A DNA stretch of 64,000 nt from Amphiura filiformis (taxonomy: Eukaryota; Echinodermata; Ophiuroidea; Amphilepidida; Amphiuridae): NCBI RefSeq assembly GCF_039555335.1, contig NC_092644.1, positions 49,551,281 to 49,615,280 on the forward strand, given 5' to 3'. The notes below the pieces were generated by a model. That model was not told the origin of the DNA. It saw only the letters and a program-made list of their open reading frames with translations, and did no database searches. Shown in pieces: positions 1-50,345 of the stretch (positions are counted from its first letter, which is position 1; every line of letters begins with the position of its first letter). A program made the position numbers and the translations under genes.

Positions 1-254
1 AAAAATGTATCCTCCCCCCATTTAACCCTCCAACCAGGGCTCATAATTATTGTACAGCCCCTAACTTTCCGCTCCGTTGACTTGCCAAATATTTCTTGCA
101 TTTTTCCAATTTTATCCTCCCCAGGGCTCATAATTATTGCATATCTCATCACCGGTTTAGATAAAACAAATGTTGGGCCCAAATTGAGCCTCCCCTAGCT
201 ACTTTTGTGGGTACCTATTCCTATAGTAATTTTTTGACACTATTAATTTCTTAC

Positions 255-1316
255 CTCAAAATTTTCTTCCGATTCTTCAGGACTTCCGGTTACTTTCGCG
301 GCTCCCTGAGGTGTAGTGTTTGAACTTGACTTCTGGCTTGGAAATTTCATTTGGACAAGTTCAGTCAGTTGGCGTTTTTCGTCTTTTTGAAACCCCCACG
401 AGCTCGGTATTTCCAGTGATAGCTTGCTTGTTGATTCCGTATGTGCGCCATAACTATTAATTATACGCGGGATTACAGCATCCTGAACAGTTTGCACGGT
501 AATTTTATTCTTATTCACCGATTCTTTTGCGTCTATAAGTTCGTCAATATCGTCGTATAATTTACCAAAGTAAGCGACCACCATAAGCCAATGAAGTTGC
601 TGCAAACTCCAAAGAACCACAATACCCGTTTGCTTGACGTAAGGAATGGACCATTCCGTTAGGTCTTTTCCACTTAGTGATGCTAGTTTATCACGAAGTA
701 TCTCCAAATAAAGCACGTCTAATTTTATGTAGTGTTCTCCGATTTCGTTGTTGGAGAAAAGAGCACCATACGCAGTCGCTAAAAATGCAATAACTGTGTC
801 TTGATTATTAGCTGTTGAATAAATATAGAATTGTCTATCGGCCCAGTCTTGAATAAACTTCATTTGATGTGGCGCGAAATCATCTGTCCGATGTTGCCAC
901 ATATGTTCAAAATCACTTAACAATATTTGAAGGGAGTTCCCGTCTTTTGATAAATTTTTCACCAAAACCTGCAGATAATGATGAACACCCAGAAGTATTA
1001 CATTTGAATCTGATGTCAGGCTATAGCCAGGATAAGTAGTAAGAATGTCACAAATATGTCTGTTCTGTGGTGTAAATGATCTGTAATAGTGTTCCGCAAC
1101 GTGTACCAAATTACCGTTACTCTGCTGAATATCAAACTCATACACATACCAAAGCTTTTGACACGAAGATAAACCGGCTGCTGTGACTTGCCAAATATTT
1201 TTATCATGATTGAGGCTGCATGGAAGAGATATCTTTTCGTCATTCTCATTCTGTTGGAATATCGTCACAGAGAGTTTAGTTATCGGCAGCTTCCCGGTCC
1301 ATAGGTTGAAATAAAC
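255..1316 (-). CDS. Internal exon of a large unrecognised gene (354 codons)
   Basis: One 1062-nt exon, phase 0 at both ends. On the minus strand it follows a pyrimidine-rich acceptor (ctttcag, ending at 1317) and ends at a GAG|GTAAGA donor at 254/255. The reading frame starts VYFNLWTGK and runs to the donor without a stop. There is no convincing start codon inside: a GTG near 1268 is mid-exon. The product is mixed alpha/beta in composition, with a helical-looking stretch around DWADRQFYIYST and a Ser/Pro/Glu-rich C-terminal tail (SQKSSSNTTPQG) that looks like a linker. No signal peptide or membrane segment is visible. I do not recognise the family. A weak overall resemblance to the N-terminal part of very large RNF213-type ATPase/E3 proteins, which are expanded in marine invertebrates, is only a suggestion. 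The next downstream exon would lie before base 1 and the upstream one beyond 1316. Confidence 0.7.
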
Positions 1317-1780
1317 CTGAAAGAAAAATTAAACAAAAGAAAAAGAAACATTTGAAATATATTTTTAAAGGGCACGATATCCATTGAAAGACGCAAGGCA
1401 GTCCATTTTGTCTTTGCACAAACAATAATGCTACACTGGGTGAACGTTTCATTTGAATTTTTGTGTGACATTTCACTAAGAGAAGTATTTTTTTATTTAA
1501 AAAAAATTATATTGAAGTTTTTTAAAAAGTAAATTTATGCAAAAGACATTCGTCCGAAAATCATACATATACTAGGGTACCTAAGTTTTGCTGTTCGTGT
1601 TTTACCTTGAATAAAGCTAGCGCTGTATTTCTTGTGGTATTATAACCATTTATAACATTTTTTTATATATTGTTAATTAATTAAATAATTAATATTTGCT
1701 TCTATCAAACAGATGGAGCAATTCAAAACTAGACATACTGTTGCTCACGAGCCACGAATATCAGACGGCGGCTTCTGAGT

Positions 1781-2857: not shown

Positions 2858-5365
2858 TATCAGGCGGAAACCAGTAGCGTAGCCAGTGGGGTGGCAAAGG
2901 GGGCAGAGTGCCCCCCCCCCCCGAACAAAAAACGAAAGAAAAAAGTGCCCCTCTGTCAAAAAATGAAAGGGAAAATATGAAGGGCAAAGGAAAAGAAAAG
3001 GGGCAAGGAGCCCCTTTTCCACCAAAATTCACCCGATCATGGGCCAAAATAGTGTAAAATAATTGTCACAATAAAGCCCTTTCAATCCCGATCATGGGCA
3101 AAAATCTGGCGAAAATAGTGTAAAATACGCATATCGTCCCAATAAAGCCTCTCTAAAATCAAAACCGGTATATGTACGAGTATGATGCAACTGCAATTTT
3201 TTTCGTCTGTGCCCCCAAATTTTATTTTGCCCCTCCTGACCAAGAAAGCTGGCTACGCCCCTGGCGGAAACCGCCTGATATAATTTATGGCGTGCGTCAT
3301 CTCAAGCTGAGAGTAACGCTATGAGTAATGCTAACCCAATCTCGGGGGACGTATACATACGGCGATTTTTCCATACGCTGGCGACGAAACCGCGTAAACG
3401 CAATCTGCCACTGCGAAATCCAACATGTTGTTACCCTGAAGTTCAGACGAGACACACTATAAATAATGGACGTCTTTTAAATAATGCTAAATGTTTAAAT
3501 CAATAAAGATAAAGATACGTAATATTAGATAATATTAAGACTTACCTCTCTAGCAGAAGTATCTGAAGCCATGTTTCCTCATAAATTTACACCACAATAG
3601 AGATAGTTTATAGAGGACACAAAATTAATCAATATTTAGGTTTGCTAACTGTTGTTCGTATTTCCATTAACGCTCATGTTTCCTGCACAATGGTCTGTAT
3701 TAGTCTACGTGTCGTCCTCTTTATATATACAGACAACGTTGATTATATTACTAATTTCGGGAGTCTGTAGTGATCATCAAAAACAACTAACAGAAATGGA
3801 TGTGTGTTACTGTGTTACAACATTGCACAAGGATATTTTGATTTCCTTAAACATTACCCGCTACATATAGTATCACTGTGTAGGTAAACAACCTAAGAAG
3901 ATGTGATTTTGTCTACCAAACTACAAACGAAATCACCGATTTGAAAATGGAATAAGCGTTTTCCATACAATGCTATAATTTATGAATAAACTTGAACCCT
4001 GGAAATCTAGGGCCTGTGTACGTCACATGATCATGCCATGTCTGTAAAGGGTTCATTAGTGTATCGATCACGCTTATCCAAAGTTCATTGATTTTGAATT
4101 ATCATGAATACGGTGAATGGTGATTAACTGCTTTTACTCGGCGTTATTGCGACAACAAATGCTCATGTAACCGTTGTTATTTCTCTATGGGATATGTAAG
4201 TATATACTGTCAGATTTATTAACAACTTCCTTTAATAGTTAAAAGATGATATTCAGAAAGGACTCTAAACGGGATAATTGTGCGAGGTGTGCTCTAAAAT
4301 TAGTTAAATTATCTCATAATCACGTGTGGATTTTGGTGTTAAAGAGGCCAAAATAAAAGAAAGACATGTCAAATTTGGTCGTATTTCGGTCCAGCATTTT
4401 GTCATATTATGATATAATAGATCGAGCAAATTTGCTCGTTGAGACGACTCTAAGATTCTTATACGCTACGCGCAACTGGGTCAAGGTCATTCAATCCATG
4501 TTGAAAAATTTAATAGCATGTCATGAAATCGGACCACCCTCCTTTAAAGTAAAATAGTTGAAGAATATTAAGAGATTGATTTAGAATTAAATCAAATTGC
4601 ACACATTTTGCTTCATATACATGCTTTAAATACAAGCTCAATCTGAAATGTCACATAGATCTTGTCAAAATAGCGCCTAATTTAATGATCCATAATACGT
4701 TAACTGTGGTACCGTTGTATGCAATGCAATGTGCACTTTTAATATCATCTAATGAAAAATGCTAAAGATGTGAAAAGGAATTTCATGTTTAATTTATGAA
4801 TTAGGAATGCATTATATCCGAAAGCCAAAATAGGACATCCAAAACCATTCATTATACCCCAGCTCAAATAATAGAGACCTTGCGAACTGGTCTCTAATAT
4901 GTGAATGTCCCTTTAACGTGACATGTACGTGCAGCCTTTATCGATTGGCATTATTGCAACAACAAATGCTCATGCAATCGCGATATCGACAGTTACCGCT
5001 GTAGATTGTGCAGATGCTATGGAAAATCAGACCATATTAAAGCCATATTATAACATTTCTGTAAAAATTGATTAGTATTATTTTATTTTCCATAAAATGT
5101 CAGGTTTTACTGTCAGATATGTCTCCTTTTAATTCTGAGCCGAACAACTGAGGACGGTCTGAGGTATAGCAAAGAAAATTGGAATTTACTACTAGCACCA
5201 ATGCATGTTACTCCAGCGGTTATAATACGGTACGACCGACACTCTGATGGGGGTGGGTGTGTATGTGTGTACCGCAAGCCGTGTACGGGGTGTGTTTATG
5301 TGTTATGAATATCGCATACGTGTTCGACTAATATTTCCATCGTAATAATAAAACGAGAGTTCCTG
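2858..5365. repeat. Tandem segmental duplication, copy 1 (2.5 kb)
   Basis: From TATCAGGCGGAAAC to GAGAGTTCCTG this segment recurs almost base for base at 5374-8309. Only a handful of substitutions and 1-bp indels were noticed (for example near 3340, 3782, 4139, 4712, 5066). The short open frames in it are repeated at a fixed 2944-bp offset and look non-coding. It begins with a hAT-type MITE (2872-3263). Confidence 0.9.
2872..3263. mobile_element. hAT-type MITE with 8-bp target duplication
   Basis: Terminal inverted repeats CAGTAGCGTAGCCAG (left) and CTGGCTACGCCCCTG (right) are flanked on both sides by GCGGAAAC (2864-2871 and 3264-3271). An 8-bp duplication with CAG...CTG ends is the signature of the hAT superfamily. 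The 392-bp interior is non-coding, with a C-homopolymer and A/G-rich tract. The element sits in the middle of a palindromic target (ATCAGGCGGAAACCGCCTGAT). Confidence 0.85.
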
Positions 5366-5387
5366 CTTTACCGTATCAGGCGGAAAC

Positions 5388-6207
5388 CAGTAGCGTAGCC
5401 AGTGGGGTGGCAAAGGGGCAGAGTGCCCCCCCCCCCGACAAAAAACGAAAGAAAAAAGTGCCCCTCTGTCAAAAAATGAAAGGGAAAATATGAAGGGCAA
5501 AGGAAAAGAAAAGGGGCAAGGAGCCCCTTTTACATACATACATACATTAAATTCTTATAAGGCGCAATATCCATTATGATCAAGGCGCCATACAAAATAC
5601 AACAAATAATACCACATGAAATATAATACAAAGCAAAAATACAAATTCAGATTAAAACAAATGAGTTTTCAAGAGTTTTTGAAAACTGCAATTGAGCCGG
5701 CATTTCTTACATGCTGCGGAAGTGAGTTCAAAGTGATGGGCCTGCAACAGAGAAGGCTTGTTCACCTATACATTTCTTACTAAATGGTATTGCAAGAAGA
5801 GTCTTGTCTGTTGCAGACCGTGTAACCGGAGCCGTTGAAGGACGATTTATGTGAGCAAGTAAGTTGGCAAGATATTCAGGACCACAGTCATTGAGACATT
5901 TGTAAACATGAAGACATATCTTAAATTGAATACGTTTTGTGACCGGTAACCAGTGCAGTTTTTCCACCAAAATTCACCCGATCATGGGCCAAAATAGTGT
6001 AAAATAATTGTCACAATAAAGCCCTTTTCATCCCGATCATGGGCAAAAATCTGGCGAAAATAGTGTAAAATACGCATATCGTCCCAATAAAGCCTCTCTA
6101 AAATCAAAACCGGTATATGTACGAGTATGATGCAACTGCAATTTTTTTCGTCTGTGCCCCCAAATTTTATTTTGCCCTCCTGACCAAGAAAGCTGGCTAC
6201 GCCCCTG
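5388..6207. mobile_element. hAT-type MITE, second copy, split by a LINE
   Basis: Same element as at 2872-3263, with the same GCGGAAAC target duplication (5380-5387 and 6208-6215), so it was copied with the segment rather than inserted again. The interior is interrupted at 5532. Confidence 0.85.
5532..5959 (-). mobile_element. 5'-truncated non-LTR retrotransposon (reverse transcriptase C-terminus)
   Basis: Minus-strand frame reads LHWLPVTKRIQFKICLHVYK, then GEQAFSVAGP. After a frameshift near 5728-5735 it continues as NSLPQHVRNAGSIAVFKNS. This is the C-terminal thumb/tail region of CR1/L2/Jockey-type reverse transcriptases (LHWLPV..RI.FK, F.VAGP.LWNSLP). The 3' end has the TACATACATACA-type simple tail. 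The flanking TTTT (5528-5531 and 5960-5963) is a possible short target duplication. It is absent from the equivalent point in copy 1, near 3018. Confidence 0.85.
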
Positions 6208-8309
6208 GCGGAAACCGCCTGATATAATTTATGGCGTGCGTCATCTCAAGCTGAGAGTAACGCTATGAGTAATGCTAATCCAATCTCGGGGGACGTATAC
6301 ATACGGCGATTTTTCCATACGCTGGCGACGAAACCGCGTAAACGCAATCTGCCACTGCGAAATCCAACATGTTGTTACCCTGAAGTTCAGACGAGACACA
6401 CTATAAATAATGGACGTCTTTTAAATAATGCTAAATGTTTAAATCAATAAAGATAAAGATACGTAATATTAGATAATATTAAGACTTACCTCTCTAGCAG
6501 AAGTATCTGAAGCCATGTTTCCTCATAAATTTACACCACAATAGAGATAGTTTATAGAGGACACAAAATTAATCAATATTTAGGTTTGCTAACTGTTGTT
6601 CGTATTTCCATTAACGCTCATGTTTCCTGCACAATGGTCTGTATTAGTCTACGTGTCGTCCTCTTTATATATACAGACAACGTTGATTATATTACTAATT
6701 TCGGGAGTCTGTAGTGATCATCGAAAACAACTAACAGAAATGGATGTGTGTTACTGTGTTACAACATTGCACAAGGATATTTTGATTTCCTTAAACATTA
6801 CCCGCTACATATAGTATCACTGTGTAGGTAAACAACCTAAGAAGATGTGATTTTGTCTACCAAACTACAAACGAAATCACCGATTTGAAAATGGAATAAC
6901 CGTTTTCCATACAATGCTATAATTTATGAATAAACTTGAACCCTGGAAATCTAGGGCCTGTGTACGTCACATGATCATGCCATGTCTGTAAAGGGTTCAT
7001 TAGTGTATCGATCACGCTTATCCAAAGTTCATTGATTTTGAATTATCATGAATACGGTGAATGGTGATTAACTGCTTTTACCCGGCGTTATTGCGACAAC
7101 AAATGCTCATGTAACCGTTGTTATTTCTCTATGGGATATGTAAGTATATACTGTCAGATTTATTAACAACTTCCTTTAATAGTTAAAAGATGATATTCAG
7201 AAAGGACTCTAAACGGGATAATTGTGCGAGGTGTGCTCTAAAATTAGTTAAATTATCTCATAATCACGTGTGGATTTTGGTGTTAAAGAGGCCAAAATAA
7301 AAGAAAGACATGTCAAATTTGGTCGTATTTCGGTCCAGCATTTTGTCATATTATGATATAATAGATCGAGCAAATTTGCTCGTTGAGACGACTCTAAGAT
7401 TCTTATACGCTACGCGCAACTGGGTCAAGGTCATTCAATCCATGTTGAAAAATTTAATAGCATGTCATGAAATCGGACCACCCTCCTTTAAAGTAAAATA
7501 GTTGAAGAATATTAAGAGATTGATTTAGAATTAAATCAAATTGCACACATTTTGCTTCATATACATGCTTTAAATACAAGCTCAATCTGAAATGTCACAT
7601 AGATCTTGTCAAAATAGCGCCTAATTTAATGATCCATAATACGTTAACTGTGGTACCCGTTGTATGCAATGCAATGTGCACTTTTAATATCATCTAATGA
7701 AAAATGCTAAAGATGTGAAAAGGAATTTCATGTTTAATTTATGAATTAGGAATGCATTATATCCGAAAGCCAAAATAGGACATCCAAAACCATTCATTAT
7801 ACCCCAGCTCAAATAATAGAGACCTTGCGAACTGGTCTCTAATATGTGAATGTCCCTTTAACGTGACATGTACGTGCAGCCTTTATCGATTGGCATTATT
7901 GCAACAACAAATGCTCATGCAATCGCGATATCGACAGTTACCGCTGTAGATTGTGCAGATGCTATGGAAAATCAGACCATATTAAAGCCATATTATAACA
8001 TTTCTGTAAAATTGATTAGTATTATTTTATTTTCCATAAAATGTCAGGTTTTACTGTCAGATATGTCTCCTTTTAATTCTGAGCCGAACAACTGAGGACG
8101 GTCTGAGGTATAGCAAAGAAAATTGGAATTTACTACTAGCACCAATGCATGTTACTCCAGCGGTTATAATACGGTACGACCGACACTCTGATGGGGGTGT
8201 GTGTGTATGTGTGTACCGCAAGCCGTGTACGGGGTGTGTTTATGTGTTATGAATATCGCATACGTGTTCGACTAATATTTCCATCGTAATAATAAAACGA
8301 GAGTTCCTG

Positions 8310-8961
8310 GTTTTTATTCAAAATCTCGGATTTTGAAAAAACTACAGCACCTAAAGTCTTGATTTTTGCAGAGTATCAGAATTTAAAAAGAATTGAGGGC
8401 GTTATAATATGGCTTTAAGTACTGCATTAGTCCGGGGGGTGTCTTCAAAACATTTTGTACGGGGATGTGCCACGTAGACTCTCGGATGCTGAATTTCTCG
8501 ACACCTACTTTTTCCTGTTTTTGCCACCCATCAGTACACCATTTTTTCACCAAGAACACCCAAATTTGCCTTAATTGGGCGCCTTTAACAGCACTTCTGC
8601 CCAAATACAGTTATATTGACTGTAAATGTTTGTTTTGTAACACATATCAAAAATAACTAAATAAAAATTGATTGGTTCGGTTATATTGATAATAATGTTT
8701 TATTTCAATGTCATAGAGAACGGCTGTATGCAATGAAATACAACGTTCATTTTCTACATGTAGCCTGGATTGTTTTGGCAACAATTCAAGCCCCTGGGAA
8801 GAACCAGGCACTACCAGGTGTTATCATAACCATGACAGCCTGAAATGTTCTATTTACGGTTGCACGTTTGCCGTGACGTAATGGTGAACATTATTTCGCA
8901 TTACATTATTTAATACATAGGTTTATGTTTATGATTCCGTTTAAGACATTTATCTACCATC
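8310..8961. other. 5' flank of the TerD-domain gene
   Basis: AT-rich. It contains a low-copy repeat fragment (about 8320-8370) whose core (GCACCTAAAGTCTTGATTTT) recurs in inverse orientation near 45980. No coding signal and no obvious TATA box close to 8962 were recognised, so the promoter is not placed. Confidence 0.4.
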
Positions 8962-9060
8962 ATGGAATGTTTGAAATGTCGAAAGAAGAAGCTGTCCAAA
9001 GAGTTTCCTTCATTTACGCTCAATGAAGATTGTGACCACGCTCCACTTCATTGCTTAAGG
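8962..9060 (+). CDS. Exon 1 of the RING-UBL-TerD gene (first half of the zinc-ligand cluster)
   Basis: Codes for 33 residues: MECLKC, a basic stretch, then CDHAPLHCLR. The donor GTAAGT follows at 9061. The pattern C-x2-C ... C-x-H-x4-C-x2-C is completed across the intron by Cys34. Confidence 0.85.
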
Positions 9061-11907
9061 GTAAGTTGCTATACCAAGCTGTCAGATTTTCAAATTTTTG
9101 TATTGATTTCGTTGATGGTCACGGTATGTAAAGAACTAAGAGATGGTGCAAAAATAGCCCTGAGTCAATATTACACCATGTTTGCAAAGAAAATTAAATA
9201 TAAAAAATCTCACAATGACTTCAAATTGCTATTAAAATGCCATTATAAGGGATTCTGGCGGCTATTTTGAAAAAAGGAGCCCTCACCGCTTGACCCAGTG
9301 TTGACATTTTTGCAGACAACCTGATTCCAATTTCCATATGGGTAAGGTTAACAAAACAAAAAGTTGTCTCCCAGAGGGGGAGGGTTTCGGTTTGTATCCC
9401 AGGGCCTAAATATCATGGTATAAAATATATAAATTGCAACAAAGTTTATTTTTGTTTCCTTTTCTAGTGTGTAACCGCTCATGCTGAAAGCTTTGCCAAG
9501 GAAACCAAACGCAAATGTTCATTTACCTCATGTGACAAAGAAATCGATGAATCCAAGTTACGCATGTGCTATATAGAGTTGGATGCGCTATTTCCTGAAG
9601 TACATCCGTCTTCTTCAGTTACCATACCTGACGCTGCCCATCTTATTATTAAACGATTAGATGGAGTGACTATTAACATCCCATACCAACATGCCTTGTT
9701 GACTGTACATCAAGTGAAATGTGAAATTGAAAAGCAAATGAAACTAGACATCAAGAAGCAGTGCCTGGTTTTCAAAGGGCAAGAAATAAAGGTCAGTTTA
9801 AAATTATAGTAAATGCAACATGTACACGCAGATTAAGATCATTTCAGGAAGTTGAAGTGTCTTTTTTCCCACTTGGTGTTTGCGACAAGTTTGCAGTATA
9901 ATGTTGGTGTCAGTGGAACGCGGAAAATACCAATATACAGCGTAATTTACAGCGATATAGAGGCAACTCCGACAGTATTCACGCCGTATTCGATTCCAAA
10001 TTCGGCACCCTAAGTTTGGTTTTAACTTCGTTGAGACTGCTGTTTTCTTCAAAAATACCAAATGACAATTTGAATGACTTATCCTTCACTTTTAGGCAAT
10101 TTATAAACAATTTTTTTTCACTTGCGCTGGGATCACTGAATGGTTCTTTAAGTAATCGAGAGAGTAGCTGGGGCATTACAATAATCTATGAAGTAATGAA
10201 AATCTTTTAAAATTTTGTAAAATCAGCGAGTACACACGATTTTGCGTTTGTCTACTGAACTAAACATCTCAAAAAAGTAACTAACCCCCTTAAATAATAG
10301 CCATTATTTTAAAAGGGGCTATATGTATTACAAATCTGTAAAATGCGTTGGATGCAGAATTTATTTCTGCGCATTTTGACACCTCATTTGATACGATAGC
10401 CCAGAAAACAATAAAACACCGGTCAATTTAATGTAGTGAGGTCCAGATTTGACAGTTGCACTTACATACAAATTATTACAAAACAAAAACACTCAGGTAT
10501 CTTACACGATTTCGATCCATTACACTGAATGCAAAATCAATAGAATTTACTGCAACTTTCAAATTTTGGGCTACACTGATTTAAATGTACGCTGTGACGT
10601 CAATATTTAGTCAATTGCTACAAATGAGGTGTCAAAAAGTGCAGAAATAAATTCTGCTTCCAACGCATTTTACAGATCTGTAATACAATCACCCGTTTTT
10701 GAATAATGGTCATTATTTAAGGGGGGTTAGTTACTTTTTTTGAGATGTTTATATTCCCATCATCATGATAATAAGCAGTTCTACTCAAACAAAATTTATA
10801 TGACGTCATAAAATTAATATGCACATGGAACTACGATATCCATGGTTAAAACCATACGTAACACGTCATGAAATATATTTGCATATCACTCTCGGCCCTG
10901 GAGGATACTGTGAACATCAGTTTCCAGCGCAACATGAAATTAAACATAACCGGCAAATACTAGTTATTACTACGGGGAATTCCGGCTCTAAGTGCGTTAC
11001 AGATGATTTTAAAACTACCCCTTTTCGTGAAAAGCAGCGTTTTTTGCCTCCTTAACGCGTCACGCGCGTGACGTGCTCAACAAAAAAAAACATTTTAACG
11101 CGTTTTGAGTGCCCCTCCCCCAGCCGAAAGTAGTGATATCATGACGACGTGTTTTACAATGATCGTCCACAACTTGATACTTTTGCCGGGTAGAGCCTAC
11201 AACCATGTGAATGTGCCGACAACAATATGTGTCCTGAATGCACTTTCTATACCATGCATAAATCAAACCATATTTTATTCATTTTGTTTCCTTTCCAGGA
11301 TTCTCTTCAAGGTAAACCAAACATTCTCTCCGAGTGTGGCGTACGACCTGGTGATACTATATTTCTGATGATCCTCCTTTACGCAATACCACCAAATCTT
11401 ACCAAAGTCGTATTTGAACTTTTCTTCGGATGGCCTGATGCTGGAAAAGACTATCTTGATGCCAGTGCTTTGATCTTCAGTAACAAAGAGTACCAAGGCG
11501 TTGCCGATTACAAGAGTCTCGGGTTTGCTGGTAAAGCAGTGTATCATTCCGGTGATCGACAAGATAGAGTCCGAAAAGAAGGAAAACATCGCATAAAGGT
11601 GGATTTATCGATACTTCCAGAAGAAATCACGCATATCTTCTTTACACTGAGTTCGTACAAATCACCAGATATATCTCATTTTAAAAAACCTACTTTGCGC
11701 TTCTTTGACGAATCAAAACCCGACAAAATGCTTTGTCCTGATCAGATCAAAAAGGCCGGAAAGAGTCAAGCAATTGTGATGTGTAGTTTAACCAAGATGT
11801 TTGACCAGTGGTATGTTCACGACAATGGAGCGACATCAAAGGGAAACGTGAAAGATTACGAACCATTAAAGACTACCATAATTGCAATTATGGATAGCAC
11901 CGTGTAA
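8962..11907 (+). CDS. RING-like + ubiquitin-like + TerD domain fusion protein (343 aa, 3 exons)
   Basis: Exons 8962-9060, 9468-9791 and 11299-11907 (stop TAA), all joined in phase 0. Donors are AGG|GTAAGT and AAG|GTCAGT; acceptors are TTCTAG and TTCCAG. The start ATG has A at -3 and G at +4. Residues 1-55 hold Cys3, Cys6, Cys24, His26, His30, Cys31, Cys34, Cys50 and Cys55, a RING-like zinc-ligand order. Residues about 92-168 match ubiquitin (IKRLDGVTINI, CLVFKGQEIKDSL, GVRPGDTIFLMI) but have no terminal Gly-Gly, because the chain runs on. Residues about 176-343 are a TerD domain: LTKVVFEL, then DYLDASALIF, VYHSGDR, KVDLSILPEEITHIFFTLSS and LRFFDES follow the bacterial pattern, including the acidic LDAS and HSGD calcium-site segments. 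TerD is best known from bacterial tellurite/stress operons. The RING-UBL half suggests a ubiquitin-pathway role (inference). Domain calls are strong; the function is unknown. Confidence 0.88.
9137..9366. repeat. Dispersed repeat fragment in intron 1 of the TerD gene
   Basis: The block from GTAAAGAACTAAG through CAATATTACACCATG to CATATGGGTAAGG matches, in inverse order, a foldback element at about 30640-32090 (shared landmarks: TTTGCAGACAA, the Ala/Pro-poor ATTGCTATTAAAATGCCAT region, GGCGGC). It is an old insertion in the intron. Confidence 0.6.
9468..9791 (+). CDS. Exon 2 of the RING-UBL-TerD gene (second half of Cys cluster and most of the UBL)
   Basis: 108 codons from CVTAHAESF to FKGQEIK. 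It contains Cys50 and Cys55 of the RING-like cluster, a short linker with Pro and Ser, then ubiquitin beta1-beta2, the long helix (HQVKCEIEKQM) and beta3. The following intron cuts the UBL fold at the same phase (0) as the first intron. Confidence 0.87.
10060..10150. repeat. Fragment of the GGGATCACTGAATGG foldback family
   Basis: The sequence CGCTGGGATCACTGAATGG and the preceding T-tract match the terminal repeat of the long foldback element at 56699-59886. A second diverged fragment of similar extent lies at about 46600-46690. Confidence 0.6.
10263..10749. mobile_element. Inverted-repeat MITE with TA target site, in intron 2 of the TerD gene
   Basis: Left end AACATCTCAAAAAAGTAACT and right end AGTTACTTTTTTTGAGATGTT are inverted copies, with about 170 bp of paired sequence on each side. 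Both ends abut TA (10261-10262, 10750-10751), as expected for Tc1/mariner-derived MITEs. The interior is non-coding. Confidence 0.8.
11299..11907 (+). CDS. Exon 3 of the RING-UBL-TerD gene (end of UBL and the whole TerD domain)
   Basis: 202 codons plus stop. It begins DSLQGKPNILSECGV, completing the ubiquitin fold, and then encodes the entire TerD domain without further introns. That TerD occupies one uninterrupted exon fits a domain gained as a unit, whether by fusion or old transfer. Confidence 0.9.
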   Translation, partial: DSLQGKPNILSECGVRPGDTIFLMILLYAIPPNLTKVVFELFFGWPDAGKDYLDASALIFSNKEYQGVADYKSLGFAGKAVYHSGDRQDRVRKEGKHRIKVDLSILPEEITHIFFTLSSYKSPDISHFKKPTLRFFDESKPDKMLCPDQIKKAGKSQAIVMCSLTKMFDQWYVHDNGATSKGNVKDYEPLKTTIIAIMDSTV

Positions 11908-12084: not shown

Positions 12085-12596
12085 ATTCATTTACAGCACA
12101 ACAAACTCAACTAACCTTAAATGTGTGACCTTTTGATGTGTGACACACATCTTCATTAAAAAAATTCCTATGACGTTGTGTTGGACTTGCCCTTTTGTTG
12201 ACCATTGGTGACTTTTGGTCAAATAAAGGTGTTGTATAACTTTTAGTTGTGGCGATTTTTTCTTCTTAATTTGGATGGTCTCCCTCATTAAACGGGGGTA
12301 CTCTTTATCATCCTTGTCTAAAACCTTTGTGGGTTTGCGGCTGGAGCAGTTGACTTTTAGCTGCTTTTACCTTTCAAGTCTATATTCGAGCTGTTTACTT
12401 GTCTGGCCGAATTAAAATGTGCTCAGGAACCTTGTAAACCAAAACTGATTTTTTTTCTCTGTTGCCGTTTGATCCTTAAGTGAGACCAACGCGTATTGTG
12501 TTTCCTCGGCGTATTGTGTGGTCTGAAGCTTTTACATGTAGCAACACCGTAGGTCTTAAAATAGGCTAGAGTTTCTGAGACAACCACTCCATATTA
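12085..12596 (-). mobile_element. Decayed Penelope-like element fragment, copy 1
   Basis: This segment is a diverged copy of 14936-15470 in the same orientation: shared blocks include CAGCACAAC.AA.TCAACTAACCTT, TTGGTGACTTTTGG and CTAAAACCTTTGTGG. The minus strand shows a broken GIY-YIG-like stretch (FGQTSKQLEYRLER) near 12370-12415, equivalent to YIGQTGRKVGDRLKE in copy 2. It directly follows the TerD gene. Confidence 0.6.
12222..12227 (+). terminator. Candidate polyadenylation signal for the TerD gene
   Basis: AATAAA about 315 bp after the stop codon, lying inside a Penelope-like repeat remnant, so real use is uncertain. Confidence 0.3.
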
Positions 12597-13440: not shown

Positions 13441-14220
13441 CCCCACTCTTGACGAGAAGCAGACGACTTACCCTGGATATGAACAGTTTTAGGTGTGGTT
13501 AATAAAAAAATACAAATGACGTTGTTTGACAAACTCCAATACCAAGTTTATTGATTGCTACATTACATTATGGTTGATCCTGTTGAAGGCCTTAGTGAAC
13601 TCGACAGGACACAAAGAGGCATTTCAAATTATCAAATTTAAAGTACATTTCAAAATTTAAAACTATTTTTAAATAATACTTGCATATAAGGTTCTGCATA
13701 TTCATTTTTTTAAAGCCTTCCCTCTCGTGTTAATTTGCTCCCTTTGTACTTGTACTATAAAAGTTTTTTAAAAAGCAAAAAAGACAAGTTTGTTTCTTAC
13801 AGGTCGGCACATTTCGTTGGTTGAGAGCATATTTGGGTATTTTGATGTTGTTGTTGAGATATTCAGAAAAGATTGTATGTTTAAGCAAAACAATAATGAA
13901 AAAATTTACTTGAAAATTGTTTTTGTTACATATTATTTACAAGCTATATGATATCAATAAAATCCTACAAAAATGAATTGATAATTTCCCTAAAAGTGTT
14001 CATATCTAACCTACTCTGCTCAGATTAATGAATTTTTGTAATTTAGGCACATGTTATCATAAATTCTGTCTGTAAAAATAACATAAAAACATAAAACTGT
14101 GTTTTGCATTTTAGGTTTTCACTCCACCTACAGGAAACAATATGCGCATTAATAAAGGGCCCTATGACCATTATTTTCTCCCGAGGATAAAATATATCCC
14201 AATGCTTGCATATATAAGTT
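13441..14220. other. AT-rich spacer, nothing recognised
   Basis: Low-complexity AT-rich DNA without splice-bounded coding sequence or clear repeats, leading into the minisatellite. Confidence 0.4.
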
Positions 14221-14232
14221 CTGTATAATTAT

Positions 14233-14643
14233 CTATACTTGCATATAAGTTCTGTATATCTATACTTGCATATAAATTCTGTATATCTATACTTGCATAT
14301 AAGTTCTGTATATCTATACTTGCATATAAGTTCTGTATATCTATACTTGCATATAAGTTCTGTATATCTATACTTGCATATAAGTTCTGTATATCTATAC
14401 TTGCATATAAGTTCTGTATATCTATACTTGCATATAAGTTCTGTATATCTATACTTGCATATAAGTTCTGTATATCTATACTTGCATATAAGTTCTGTAT
14501 ATCTATACTTGCATATAAGTTCTGTATATCTATACTTGCATATAAGTTCTGTATATCTATACTTGCATATAAGTTCTGTATATCTATACTTGCATATAAG
14601 TTCTGTATATCTATACTTGCATATAAGTTCTGTATATCTATCA
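14233..14643. repeat. 27-bp minisatellite, about 15 near-identical copies
   Basis: Unit ATATCTATACTTGCATATAA plus GTTCTGT (27 bp) repeated about 15 times with almost no variation; edge units are degenerate. Because 27 is a multiple of three and the unit lacks stops, it is open on both strands as 9-residue repeats (DIQNLYASI on minus, YLYLHISSV on plus). This is a property of the unit and not evidence of a gene. Confidence 0.95.
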
Positions 14644-17359: not shown

Positions 17360-18290
17360 TAAACGATCCATCCCCAGTCAGATATAGATGTACGTTCTCC
17401 AAGAGTTAAGCATTGCAGCAGAGGCTGTGGGTGGAAGTCTTTCAGGTTTAACAAAGTTCTCTGCTGGGCAAACTTTTTTGGAAAGAAACCTGCAGCATAA
17501 GGATTCCAAAGACTCTGATTGCTGACCATTAAACAAGGACACCGTTGCTTTGCAGCCTTCACTTTCTATATATTCTTGATCCATACAGGATCACCATTGA
17601 TAATGTTGTGCACTACAGACTTCATGCCTACCCCAAATATTCTTGAAGTAGTGTTGTAACCTGAAAACGCATGGGCAAACAACACATCCGAACAAATGTC
17701 ATCACTGAGTAAGCGCTTCGGAACATATGCATATCCTTCAGCGTGGATCACATGGCATCCTTTCTGTTGCATACGCACCCCAGTTAGTTTAATGAGTGTC
17801 TGTTTGTTCAGATCATTTTTTTTGCCAGCAAATTGCCAGCATCTGATATGTCTACCTTATTTGCAACCCGACTCTTTGCAGCGCTGATTCGTGTTATCCT
17901 TTGTGTTTTGTCCACCAGTGTATCTCTCAAAGACAACCGTGGCCTTGCCATAGTGATCAAAATTAATGTGAAAGATGTATTAATTATATCAGCAAGGGAA
18001 CTATAGGTGCTTCCTTCTGTCCACTTCAAGCGATGCAGAAGAGAATCTCCATCAAGAACATAGTGATCAGTCCTTAGAACTACCTCAGGGCCATCAGCCT
18101 CTGATGAGGACACATGATCCTGTATGACTTGTAGTAGTGGTGCTTTATCTGGAAACCAGAAACTTTTGAAACAACAGAGCTGGATCAATGGTTTGGTCAT
18201 CAGTGACCTTGACAGTCCGTGCAGATGCAAGGGTCTTGACTCTAGCCTTCCGTTTGTAGCTATATGAAAAGTCAGCATGTCCTTCCATTT
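17360..18290 (-). pseudogene. Decayed transposon gene, inverted copy
   Basis: Minus-strand fragments GCHVIHAEG, LLSDDICSDVLFAHAFSGYN and CKATVSLFNGQQSESLES match the plus-strand copy at 18480-19290, in which the Tyr-Asn pair is Cys-Asp. The frames are broken. It is the mirror half of the same element-encoded protein. Confidence 0.7.
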
Positions 18291-18479
18291 TGTTTACCTA
18301 CTTTGAACTGGTTTTGCATGTGACTCACTTATCAGAGGGTGATGCCCCTGAGACAGTTCCAAGGACTGAGTGATCACTATGTTCTTGATGGAGTTCTCTT
18401 CTGATAATTATGCATCTTTCACATTTGATCACTATGGCAAGGCCACGGTTGTCTTTGATTGATACATTGGGGACTGTAT

Positions 18480-19287
18480 GGAACAGAAAGGATGTCATCT
18501 GATCCACGCTGATGGAGATGCCGATATTGATACAGTGAAAGCAACAGTCGCAATGGCATCATTTAAGTTAACAACCCTAATTGGAGAAGACACATCTGTT
18601 GGTATTACTTCTTCATTATGCAGAAAAGGACTGTAAGGACTTGTACTTTCGGTCTGACAATGATAAACTATATGTATATGATATCAAGGTTCCGAACCGC
18701 TTACTCAGTTATGACATATGTTCGGATTTGTTGTTGGCCCATGCGTTTTCAGGTTGTGACACTACTTCAAGAATATTTGTGGTAGGCAAGTCTGTATTTA
18801 ACAAAACCATCAATGGTCATCCTGTATTACAAGTTTGTTCCAAGGCATTTCGCACTCCCAATATGGATCAAGAATATGTATTAAGTGAAGGCTGCAAAGC
18901 AATGGTGTCCCTGTTTAATGGTCAGCAATCAGAGTCTTTGGAATCCTTACGCTGCCGGTTTCTTTTCAACAAAAAAAATGCACAGCAAAGAGCTTCGTTT
19001 AACCTGAAAGACTTCCACCCACAACCTCTGCTGCCAAGCATCACTCCAGGAATATGTATCTATAGGTCATGCAGTGGATGTGTAAAAGTGATGGTATGCA
19101 TCCAATTGACTGGGGATGGATTCTTCAAGGTGACAAATTTGTTCCATTCATGATGAAAAGAAGTCCAGCGCCAGAATCATTACTGAAGATGATTCGATGC
19201 AATTGTTCTACAGAATGCATCACAATGAAATGTAGCTGCAGAAAGAATGGACTCAATTGCACTGGAGCATGTGCACACATAGGCTAA
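18480..19287 (+). pseudogene. Decayed transposon gene: PIN-like nuclease motif and Cys-rich (CXC-like) tail
   Basis: The frame from about 18489 reads GCHLIHADGDADIDTVKATV, then LTTLIGEDT, and is then shifted near 18597 into LLVLLLHYAEKDCKDL and LLAHAFSGCDTTSRIF. The HADGDAD and GEDT(D)LLVLL acidic motifs resemble PIN/FEN-type nuclease sites. After a further shift near 19060-19170 the tail IRCNCSTECITMKCSCRKNG is a Cys-rich tesmin/CXC-like segment. Proteins with GCDTTSR motifs are common as uncharacterised multi-copy genes in marine invertebrates. Here the repeat context and frameshifts mark it as a dead transposon gene. Confidence 0.6.
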
Positions 19288-21781: not shown

Positions 21782-45515
<23,734 letters not shown>

Positions 45516-48994: not shown

Positions 48995-49927
48995 TACTTA
49001 CTTTACTTACTTACTTTTGTCCTCCGCTTATTCCTCTCAGAGTCGCGGGAAATGATGGGACGTCTGTCTTGGGCTGCATGGGTAGCATCTGTCAGGTTGG
49101 TATTGTGCCTTGTCAGGATTTTCTTGACCCCTCAATCCATCTTCTTCTTGGCCTTCCGACAGGTTTGGTACCGGACAGTTTGCTGTTGTAGGACCGCAGG
49201 GCTGGTTGATTTGTGGGCATGCGCATAAGATGACCAAACCATTTGATGCGATGGCTTTCAATCTGGTCTAGCATAGGCTTGGTGCCAACCATGTCTCTGA
49301 TGACTTCATTCCTAATTTTGTCCCGTCGTGTCTTGTTTACAGCTTTTCGTAGGCATTTCATTTCACAGGTGGTGATCTTCTGTTCAGTCTTTTTGTTCAT
49401 AGCCCATGTTTGTGCCTGGTAGCAGAGAGTCGGGGTATAGATTGCGTTGATGATTGTTCTTTTTGCATCCATTGGCACAACTGGGTGGGAAAGTATAGGC
49501 CCAAGCATGAAGGTGATGTTGTTTGCTTTCTGGCATCTGGTTTCAATTTCTCGGTCTATCTTCCCGTCTTCAGTAAAGATGCTGCCCAGATACTTAAACT
49601 CCTTTGATTGCTGGAGGGTTGTGTTGTCAATCTTGATGTCCAAGGTCTTTTGGGATCGGCTGATCAGCATGGTTTCTGTCTTTGGGATGCTTATGCTCAT
49701 GCCATACTTTTGGCAGGTTGCGTGCAGTCTGTTGGTGTGGTTTTGTAAGCTAAGGCTGTCTTGGTGGATGAGACATTGATCATCTGCAAACAGTAGTTCA
49801 TTGAGAGCTTCTTCATCTAGATTTGCTTCTTGGGTGATCCTGTCCATAAAAATGAGGAACAGGAGAGGCGAGAGGACACATCCTTGTCGGACACCTGACT
49901 TCACAGGAAACCACTTGGTGAGTCCGG
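48995..49927 (-). mobile_element. 5'-truncated non-LTR retrotransposon: reverse transcriptase C-terminal half
   Basis: Minus strand, from LTKWFPVKSGVRQGCVLSPL through LLFADDQCLIHQ (the catalytic F/LADD box with both Asp), KYLGSIFTEDGKIDREI, and the typical tail IKWFGHLMRM ... GRPRRRWI. A frameshift near 49125 then leads to GVKKILTRHNTNLTDATHAA and a stop. The 3' end is a TAAG-type simple repeat. The N-terminal reverse transcriptase part and the endonuclease are missing. RTE/BovB-type affinity is likely from the C-terminal motif, but not certain. Confidence 0.9.
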
Positions 49928-49931
49928 TCCT

Positions 49932-50345
49932 TGTTCAGTTCAGTTCAGTTCTCTCCATATGGAGAGATTTTATTTCACAGTATATATAGGCCTTCGGCCT
50001 TACAATACAATAAAGTACAGTACAATATATTTACCCATCACCAGGGGGCAAAAGAGTTTGCCTGATTTTATGAGCATTAAAAATAAATTTTGATAATGAA
50101 ATTATAGTTTGTTGATTTCTAGACTGAAATAGAGTAATAAAATAATTGAAATTTGGAATACACTCTGGCAATAAGCGATTTGTCCTGACAGTACAGAGGC
50201 TGCCCCTGTATATGGCTCTCACACTGTCCAGCAGTTGCCCTTTTACACCGTAGTCTTCTAGCACAGTCCAGAGTAGATCTCTGTTTACTCGATCAATCCT
50301 TTTCATGACATAATCTATGTACCCTCTACTAGTACCCACGTGAAT
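49932..50345 (-). mobile_element. Second non-LTR retrotransposon fragment
   Basis: The minus-strand frame includes DRVNRDLLWTVLEDYGVKGQ and LLDSVRAIYRGSLCTVR, a reverse transcriptase palm segment (F/IDRV...LW..L...G). It then runs straight into 3'-like sequence and a GAACT-type simple tail (49932-49947), so an internal deletion is likely. It abuts the previous LINE. Confidence 0.75.

Follow-up and report, generated by a model that had tools for sequence, protein, structure and literature searches.

A 64,000-nucleotide stretch of the genome of the brittle star Amphiura filiformis (contig NC_092644.1, positions 49,551,281 to 49,615,280 of the forward strand; hereafter the window, with positions counted from its first letter) carries a spliced gene whose product combines a RING-like zinc finger, a ubiquitin-like domain (UBL) and a TerD domain, in that order. 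At least four members of a RING-UBL-TerD family, this gene among them, are present in A. filiformis, and we are close to certain that the family and its fixed-order architecture are real. Because the same combination occurs in corals, molluscs, starfish and lancelets, the family is also old in animals. It represents a new combination of known domains and not a new kind of system, and is undescribed as far as we searched: none of the titles and abstract openings listed by a literature search, which mostly covered papers outside subscription, describes an animal RING-UBL-TerD protein. The pairing of ubiquitin and TerD domains is already present in the precomputed Pfam columns of public proteins, whose source names carry no function.

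Gene structure and domain composition

The three exons splice in frame to a product of 343 amino acids (aa) that matches an A. filiformis record in NCBI/UniRef (P0001, "uncharacterized protein") with 100% identity along all 343 aa. The original prediction, made from the letters of the window, had placed these exons and junctions exactly, including the frame and the GT-AG sites; both introns are in phase 0. The features of the gene are:

8962..9060, forward strand: coding exon 1, aa 1-33, with the first half of the RING-like finger (C3 C6 C24 H26 C31)
9061..9467, forward strand: intron 1, 407 nt, phase 0, donor GTAAGT, acceptor TTTTCTAG
9468..9791, forward strand: coding exon 2, aa 34-141, with the remainder of the RING (C34 C50 C55, to ~9533), a helix (61-74), a linker and the start of the UBL (~9636)
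9792..11298, forward strand: intron 2, 1507 nt, phase 0, cutting the UBL at K141/D142
10261..10751, no strand assigned: imperfect palindrome of ~490 bp inside intron 2, 72% self-complementary (minus-strand match in a blastn of the window against itself), resembling a miniature inverted-repeat transposable element
11299..11907, forward strand: coding exon 3, aa 142-343 and stop, with the end of the UBL (to ~11373) and the TerD domain (~11389-11901)
12155..12160, forward strand: ATTAAA, the first hexamer resembling a poly(A) signal past the stop codon, with AATAAA next at 12222

The ATG at 8962 is the first one downstream of an in-frame TGA at 8932, and the tblastn alignments of most homologues stop at 9060, where exon 1 ends; intron 1 thus cuts the RING between R33 and C34. 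The window holds a single copy of the family, as the profile was significant for the three exon frames only (next frame, E 1.1). Among the 120 matches listed from a TerD-profile search (218 in all), 27 have full-length size (335-359 aa) and lie on contigs no longer than 2.4 kb, as would be expected of spliced transcripts, which they putatively are.

The TerD domain is recognized by Pfam (PF02342, 39.7 bits versus a cut-off of 25.3), the TerD profile matches 46 of 46 homologues at E ≤ 1, and the AlphaFold model of the product matches TerD structures and adopts the TerD beta-sandwich fold. A full TerD domain with LDAS and HSGD motifs, as had been proposed, is therefore well supported, L-D-A-S and H-[ST]-G-D being common to bacterial TerDs (conservation was gauged with 80 TerDs of the Streptomyces type, which are closely related and so do not count as independent). 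Six residues are invariant in all 46 homologues (D192, D195, H224, G236, C287 and C303), while D211 is kept in 45, H237 in 44 and D227 in 33 of them; P0001 itself has a Lys at 237. In PHROGs, the TerD part of P0001 matches phrog_5698 (E 1.8e-10), for which no function is annotated, and PADLOC returned no match.

The UBL likewise exceeds its Pfam cut-off (PF00240, 29.0 versus 25.4 bits), and the AlphaFold model, which matches ubiquitin structures, predicts a ubiquitin fold for it. No Gly-Gly is found at the UBL-TerD junction in any of the 46 rows, unlike in conjugated ubiquitin and UBL modifiers, in agreement with the earlier reading of a UBL without a Gly-Gly end. A hydrophobic residue occupies the positions of ubiquitin L8 and I44 in 46/46 members, and that of V70 in 43/46.

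For the zinc finger, nine Cys/His residues in RING-like order had been counted. Of the Cys/His in the N-terminal part, eight stand as conserved ligands in C3HC4 order (C3 C6 C24 H26 C31 C34 C50 C55), complete in 44 of the 46 aligned members (P0083 lacks the region and P0138 has a different N-terminus), whereas H30, H38 and C67 vary among the homologues in the 46-row table. The spacing H26-x4-C31 is one residue above the usual RING norm. When the RING profile was compared to solved structures, 16 of 17 matches were RING proteins, with PCGF/BMI1 chains (PCGF5, BMI1) the best; these 17 are mostly BMI1 and other PCGF chains and thus not independent proteins. Among the 16 are Tfb3, which we take to be a RING protein, and an 8grm chain that bears the name COMMD3 and was counted because it aligned at the positions of BMI1. 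A comparison of the RING to PCGF gave a probability of 90, with segments pre-chosen from the earlier profile matches and so not independent of them. Over the RING part, the AlphaFold model has blocks with a predicted local distance difference test (pLDDT) of 83-95 and a helix after the CxxC. A DM domain (PF00751) was considered for the zinc region and rejected (E 0.32, 11.4 bits versus a cut-off of 27). The succession of a RING-like region, a UBL and a full TerD domain within one animal gene is thus borne out by Pfam and the model (for the UBL and TerD) and by the conservation of the ligands (for the RING-like region).

Distribution and origin of the family

Homologue searches yielded 21 proteins (own product included), then 31, besides the 218 of the TerD profile. 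All organism-named rows among the matches listed are animals (echinoderms, cnidarians, lancelets, bivalves, abalone), and the RING-UBL-TerD order is common to corals, molluscs, starfish, the brittle star and lancelets. No vertebrate or arthropod names appear among the 120 of 218 TerD-profile matches listed, from which we do not claim an absence there. In A. filiformis, three paralogues on other contigs (P0002, P0003 and P0006) are 53, 46 and 43% identical to the product by BLASTP, and several copies per species are also found in Mercenaria, Potamilus, Sinanodonta, Mytilus and Haliotis. TerD had been called sparse in animals; its spread is indeed uneven, but the family is often multi-copy where present, and "patchy" is the better term. 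The original prediction knew of no named animal protein with this order, and the animal matches listed with a source name are accordingly all uncharacterized, hypothetical or named after domains.

A tree of 46 rows, hand-picked from the matches listed, separates lancelets (support 100/100), cnidarians (100/97), echinoderms (100/99) and molluscs (100/99). It is rooted at midpoint, and therefore we make no claim on the order among these four groups. Within it, a bivalve-type clade of 13 rows (nine from named species and four from other sources; support 100/100) is characterized by an additional N-terminal vWA-type segment: 12 of the 13 rows start with it and carry its D-x-[ST]-x-S motif, and P0014 starts inside the segment. 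A Pfam vWA match supports this assignment; the model of one such protein (P0022) is poor (mean pLDDT 69.8). The position of intron 2 is apparently conserved in other animals: among database fragments that start at exon 3, 28 of the 33 that reach the K141 column have a Gln there, versus 6 of 46 full-length members, and Gln is what a translated CAG acceptor would give. The full-length oyster members P0079, P0083 and P0085 also have Gln at this column, so that the residue is less telling in oysters. Taken together, the group-separating tree, the bivalve vWA clade and the Gln pattern at intron 2 fit a descent from the common ancestor of cnidarians and bilaterians. Two metagenome proteins annotated as "stress response protein SCP2" (P0051 and P0108) share 41% identity with the animal TerD exon and fall among the animal rows in rank; a bacterial label on what is really animal DNA is the probable explanation.

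The only NCBIfam match of P0001 is to the bacterial MXAN_6230/SCO0854 family (NF041916, E 0.096). The members at actinobacterial loci L089 and L090 combine a RING (Prok-RING_4, E 3.9e-20 in L090) with a divergent TerD-like domain on which Pfam is silent in L090, and share the CDY..HSGD motif with the animal proteins; they are ~860 aa long, and no UBL was detected by Pfam in L090. This match and motif make the SCO0854 family a tempting direct source of the animal gene, which is not supported. By hhalign, the animal TerD scored 98, 89 and 84 against three groups of ordinary TerDs sorted by eye, versus 40 against SCO0854, and the animal RING reached a probability of 4.4 against the SCO0854 RING, close to the 2.2 of a reversed control. 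Of 296 actinobacterial genomes, 13 contained ordinary bacterial TerDs that the animal TerD profile recovered (best E 3.2e-15). No SCO0854 locus was among the matches listed from these genomes, but scoring was limited to at most 11 first-look candidates in each, and loci may have escaped it; on the fetched loci the profile matched L090 weakly (E 1.5e-3), and L089 was not listed. The animal RING profile gave weak, mostly partial-profile matches in 6 of 100 actinobacterial genomes (E ≤ 0.1). Since the animal TerD is nearer to ordinary bacterial groups than to SCO0854, and since the best solved matches of the RING are nearly all eukaryotic, the RING-UBL-TerD fusion probably came about within eukaryotes, and the pairing of RING and TerD-like domains in bacteria would be a separate development.

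Other features of the window

A direct repeat of 2.36 kb (3015-5369 and 5960-8313, 99.5% identical), whose second copy ends ~650 bp before the ATG of the gene, results either from tandem duplication in the very recent past or from a duplicate in the assembly. Further downstream, nested inverted arms (16355-16973/19489-20136, 88%, and 17153-17724/18689-19331, 77%) surround two open reading frames (ORFs; 17811-18293 on the reverse and 18581-19150 on the forward strand), a unit that looks like a mobile element; a Pfam search with the forward ORF gave nothing convincing. The remaining features are:

246-1328, reverse strand: open frame of 361 aa that reads like a real exon, with no Pfam match at E ≤ 0.1 and no PDB match at E ≤ 1
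14202-14641, both strands: minisatellite array, open in several frames, with repeated peptides such as YASIDIQNL
22443-22994, 24811-25233 and 29827-30231 (span 22443-30231), reverse strand: three ORFs with PLAT/LH2 matches in Pfam, probably exons of PLAT-domain genes
49116-49934, reverse strand: reverse transcriptase fragment (PF00078, E 3.5e-17), by its look a remnant of a retroelement of the type without long terminal repeats

Possible functions of the RING-UBL-TerD proteins

From the observed architecture and conservation and the predicted UBL and TerD folds, we infer a cellular role that we favour tentatively, at somewhat less than an even chance: the protein may be an intracellular stress or immune adaptor whose RING-UBL part is coupled to the ubiquitin system. 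The C-terminal TerD sandwich would act as a sensor or docking module recognising a ligand or partner, and the N-terminal RING-UBL unit would couple this event to the ubiquitin machinery. The RING would most likely be a dimerising or partner-dependent one of the PCGF kind, and the UBL a non-cleavable docking surface that retains the hydrophobic patch of ubiquitin. Polycomb PCGF proteins, the closest solved RINGs by profile, also have a RING followed by a ubiquitin-like domain (RAWUL); the animal UBL matches ubiquitin itself (PF00240), with RAWUL not compared by name, and a TerD domain is added. Integral, non-conjugated UBLs beside zinc-binding ligase modules are also known from ligases of the parkin/HOIL-1 type, from which the animal family differs in that its UBL comes after the RING, is accompanied by no RBR modules and is followed by TerD.

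Several observations weigh against this adaptor role. Pfam detects no RING in P0001, and its matches in other members are weak: zf-RING_2 in four, zf-C3HC4_2 in three, zf-rbx1 in two and zf-C3HC4 in two of the 46 (best E 0.0084; 25 of 48 families listed), and zf-RING_2 in the vWA-RING fragment P0031 (E 0.0037, 17.9 bits versus a cut-off of 27.3). By profile, the region thus matches solved RING structures but stays below the RING cut-offs of Pfam. The best 50 rows of the Foldseek/VIA structure search were filled by TerD and ubiquitin chains, with none for residues 1-60, and hence provide no test of the RING. Active RING ubiquitin ligases (E3) usually carry a linchpin Arg/Lys after the last Cys and a hydrophobic contact to the ubiquitin-conjugating enzyme (E2). 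In the family, the residue after the eighth ligand is Lys in 1/45 and Arg in 0/45 members, and in 16/44 a hydrophobic residue (Ile/Leu/Val/Met) precedes the second Cys; both counts speak against a plain E3 activity; with the linchpin missing, a partner RING would probably be needed. On the TerD side, the Asp of GWD and one Asp of DLD are gone and G-H-H/Q stands in place of D-D-E. Finally, eukaryotic TerDs occur in structural places: at the Toxoplasma apex, in a passage of PMC7951837, in the centrosome proteome, where a passage of PMC3188802 lists CapB, and in a radial-spoke chain that our structure search matched by fold.

These last findings suggest a serious alternative, to which we would give roughly one chance in a handful: a structural or cytoskeletal assembly protein in which TerD and the UBL serve only for contacts between proteins and take no part in stress or ubiquitin signalling. 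The UBL keeps ubiquitin's hydrophobic patch, however, and the multi-copy families of bivalves and the brittle star, together with the vWA fusion, resemble a response family in diversification more than a core structural component.

A catalytic RING E3 ligase with a calcium-sensing TerD, close to what had originally been proposed, appears unlikely. The RING ligands are complete in nearly all members, the CPxC proline is present in 34/45, the TerD fold is clear, and the structure search also returned 2kxt, which is titled calcium-binding. Yet the linchpin is virtually absent and the E2-contact position is Lys in 15/44 members. The acidic loops GDN..GDDE and DFDLDAS of bacterial TerD bind calcium, and the two solved bacterial TerDs (3ibz and 2kxt) both carry GWD, DFDLDAS and GDN..TGEG.GDDE; in a residue table of bacterial and animal TerDs (10 of 14 animal rows), these acids are lost or replaced in the animal domain, which is moreover fused to RING-UBL. 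A calcium-sensing catalytic E3 is therefore not favoured, and both the classical E3 and the calcium sensor lose support; the ligand sensing and the link to stress or defence that were also part of the original prediction may still hold.

Doubtful, and less likely again, is a TerD that keeps a remodelled metal- or nucleotide-like site (D192, D195, D211, H224, H237) and binds a transition metal or a nucleoside-like signal. The near-complete conservation of these five residues agrees with it, and so do CapA and CapB of Dictyostelium, which a passage of PMC3188802 terms cAMP-binding and whose C-terminal half it derives from a tellurium-resistance (TerD) subunit, with no mention of RING-UBL in that passage. 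The residues would have to meet in space for this, however, and P0001 departs from the pattern at 237. That the gene is a bacterial contaminant, or that its exons are unrelated and joined by chance, might come to mind from the mainly bacterial occurrence of TerD; this is ruled out, with a negligible residual probability, by the two GT-AG introns, the four paralogues on contigs of differing length and the same architecture in four animal phyla with an apparently conserved intron 2.

Returning to the favoured stress or immune adaptor, TerD is a domain familiar from bacterial operons linked to tellurite, phage and stress, with a ligand that is still unsettled. Passages of two papers (PMC7159879, PMC7824862) suggest that, in bacterial and phage systems, it may sense signals resembling nucleotides. 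In a bolder scenario, which we consider improbable at about one in five, the cnidarian-bilaterian ancestor would have fused a eukaryotic RING-UBL unit with a TerD sensor of bacterial type, and the resulting invertebrate pathway for stress or immunity would read out a Ter-like signal via ubiquitin; bivalves would later have added a MIDAS-type vWA domain in front, uniting TerD and vWA components that are separate in bacterial Ter. The bacterial Ter system is an operon (with TerB/C, PRTase/HAD and the vWA protein TerF), whereas the animal form is a single gene in which only vWA recurs, in the bivalve fusion. With TerD tied to a RING and a UBL, the family offers a tractable eukaryotic setting to ask what TerD senses, and it may connect prokaryotic conflict systems to ubiquitin signalling in invertebrates. 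It also provides a common frame for uncharacterized genes that are multi-copy in mussels, clams, abalone and the brittle star.
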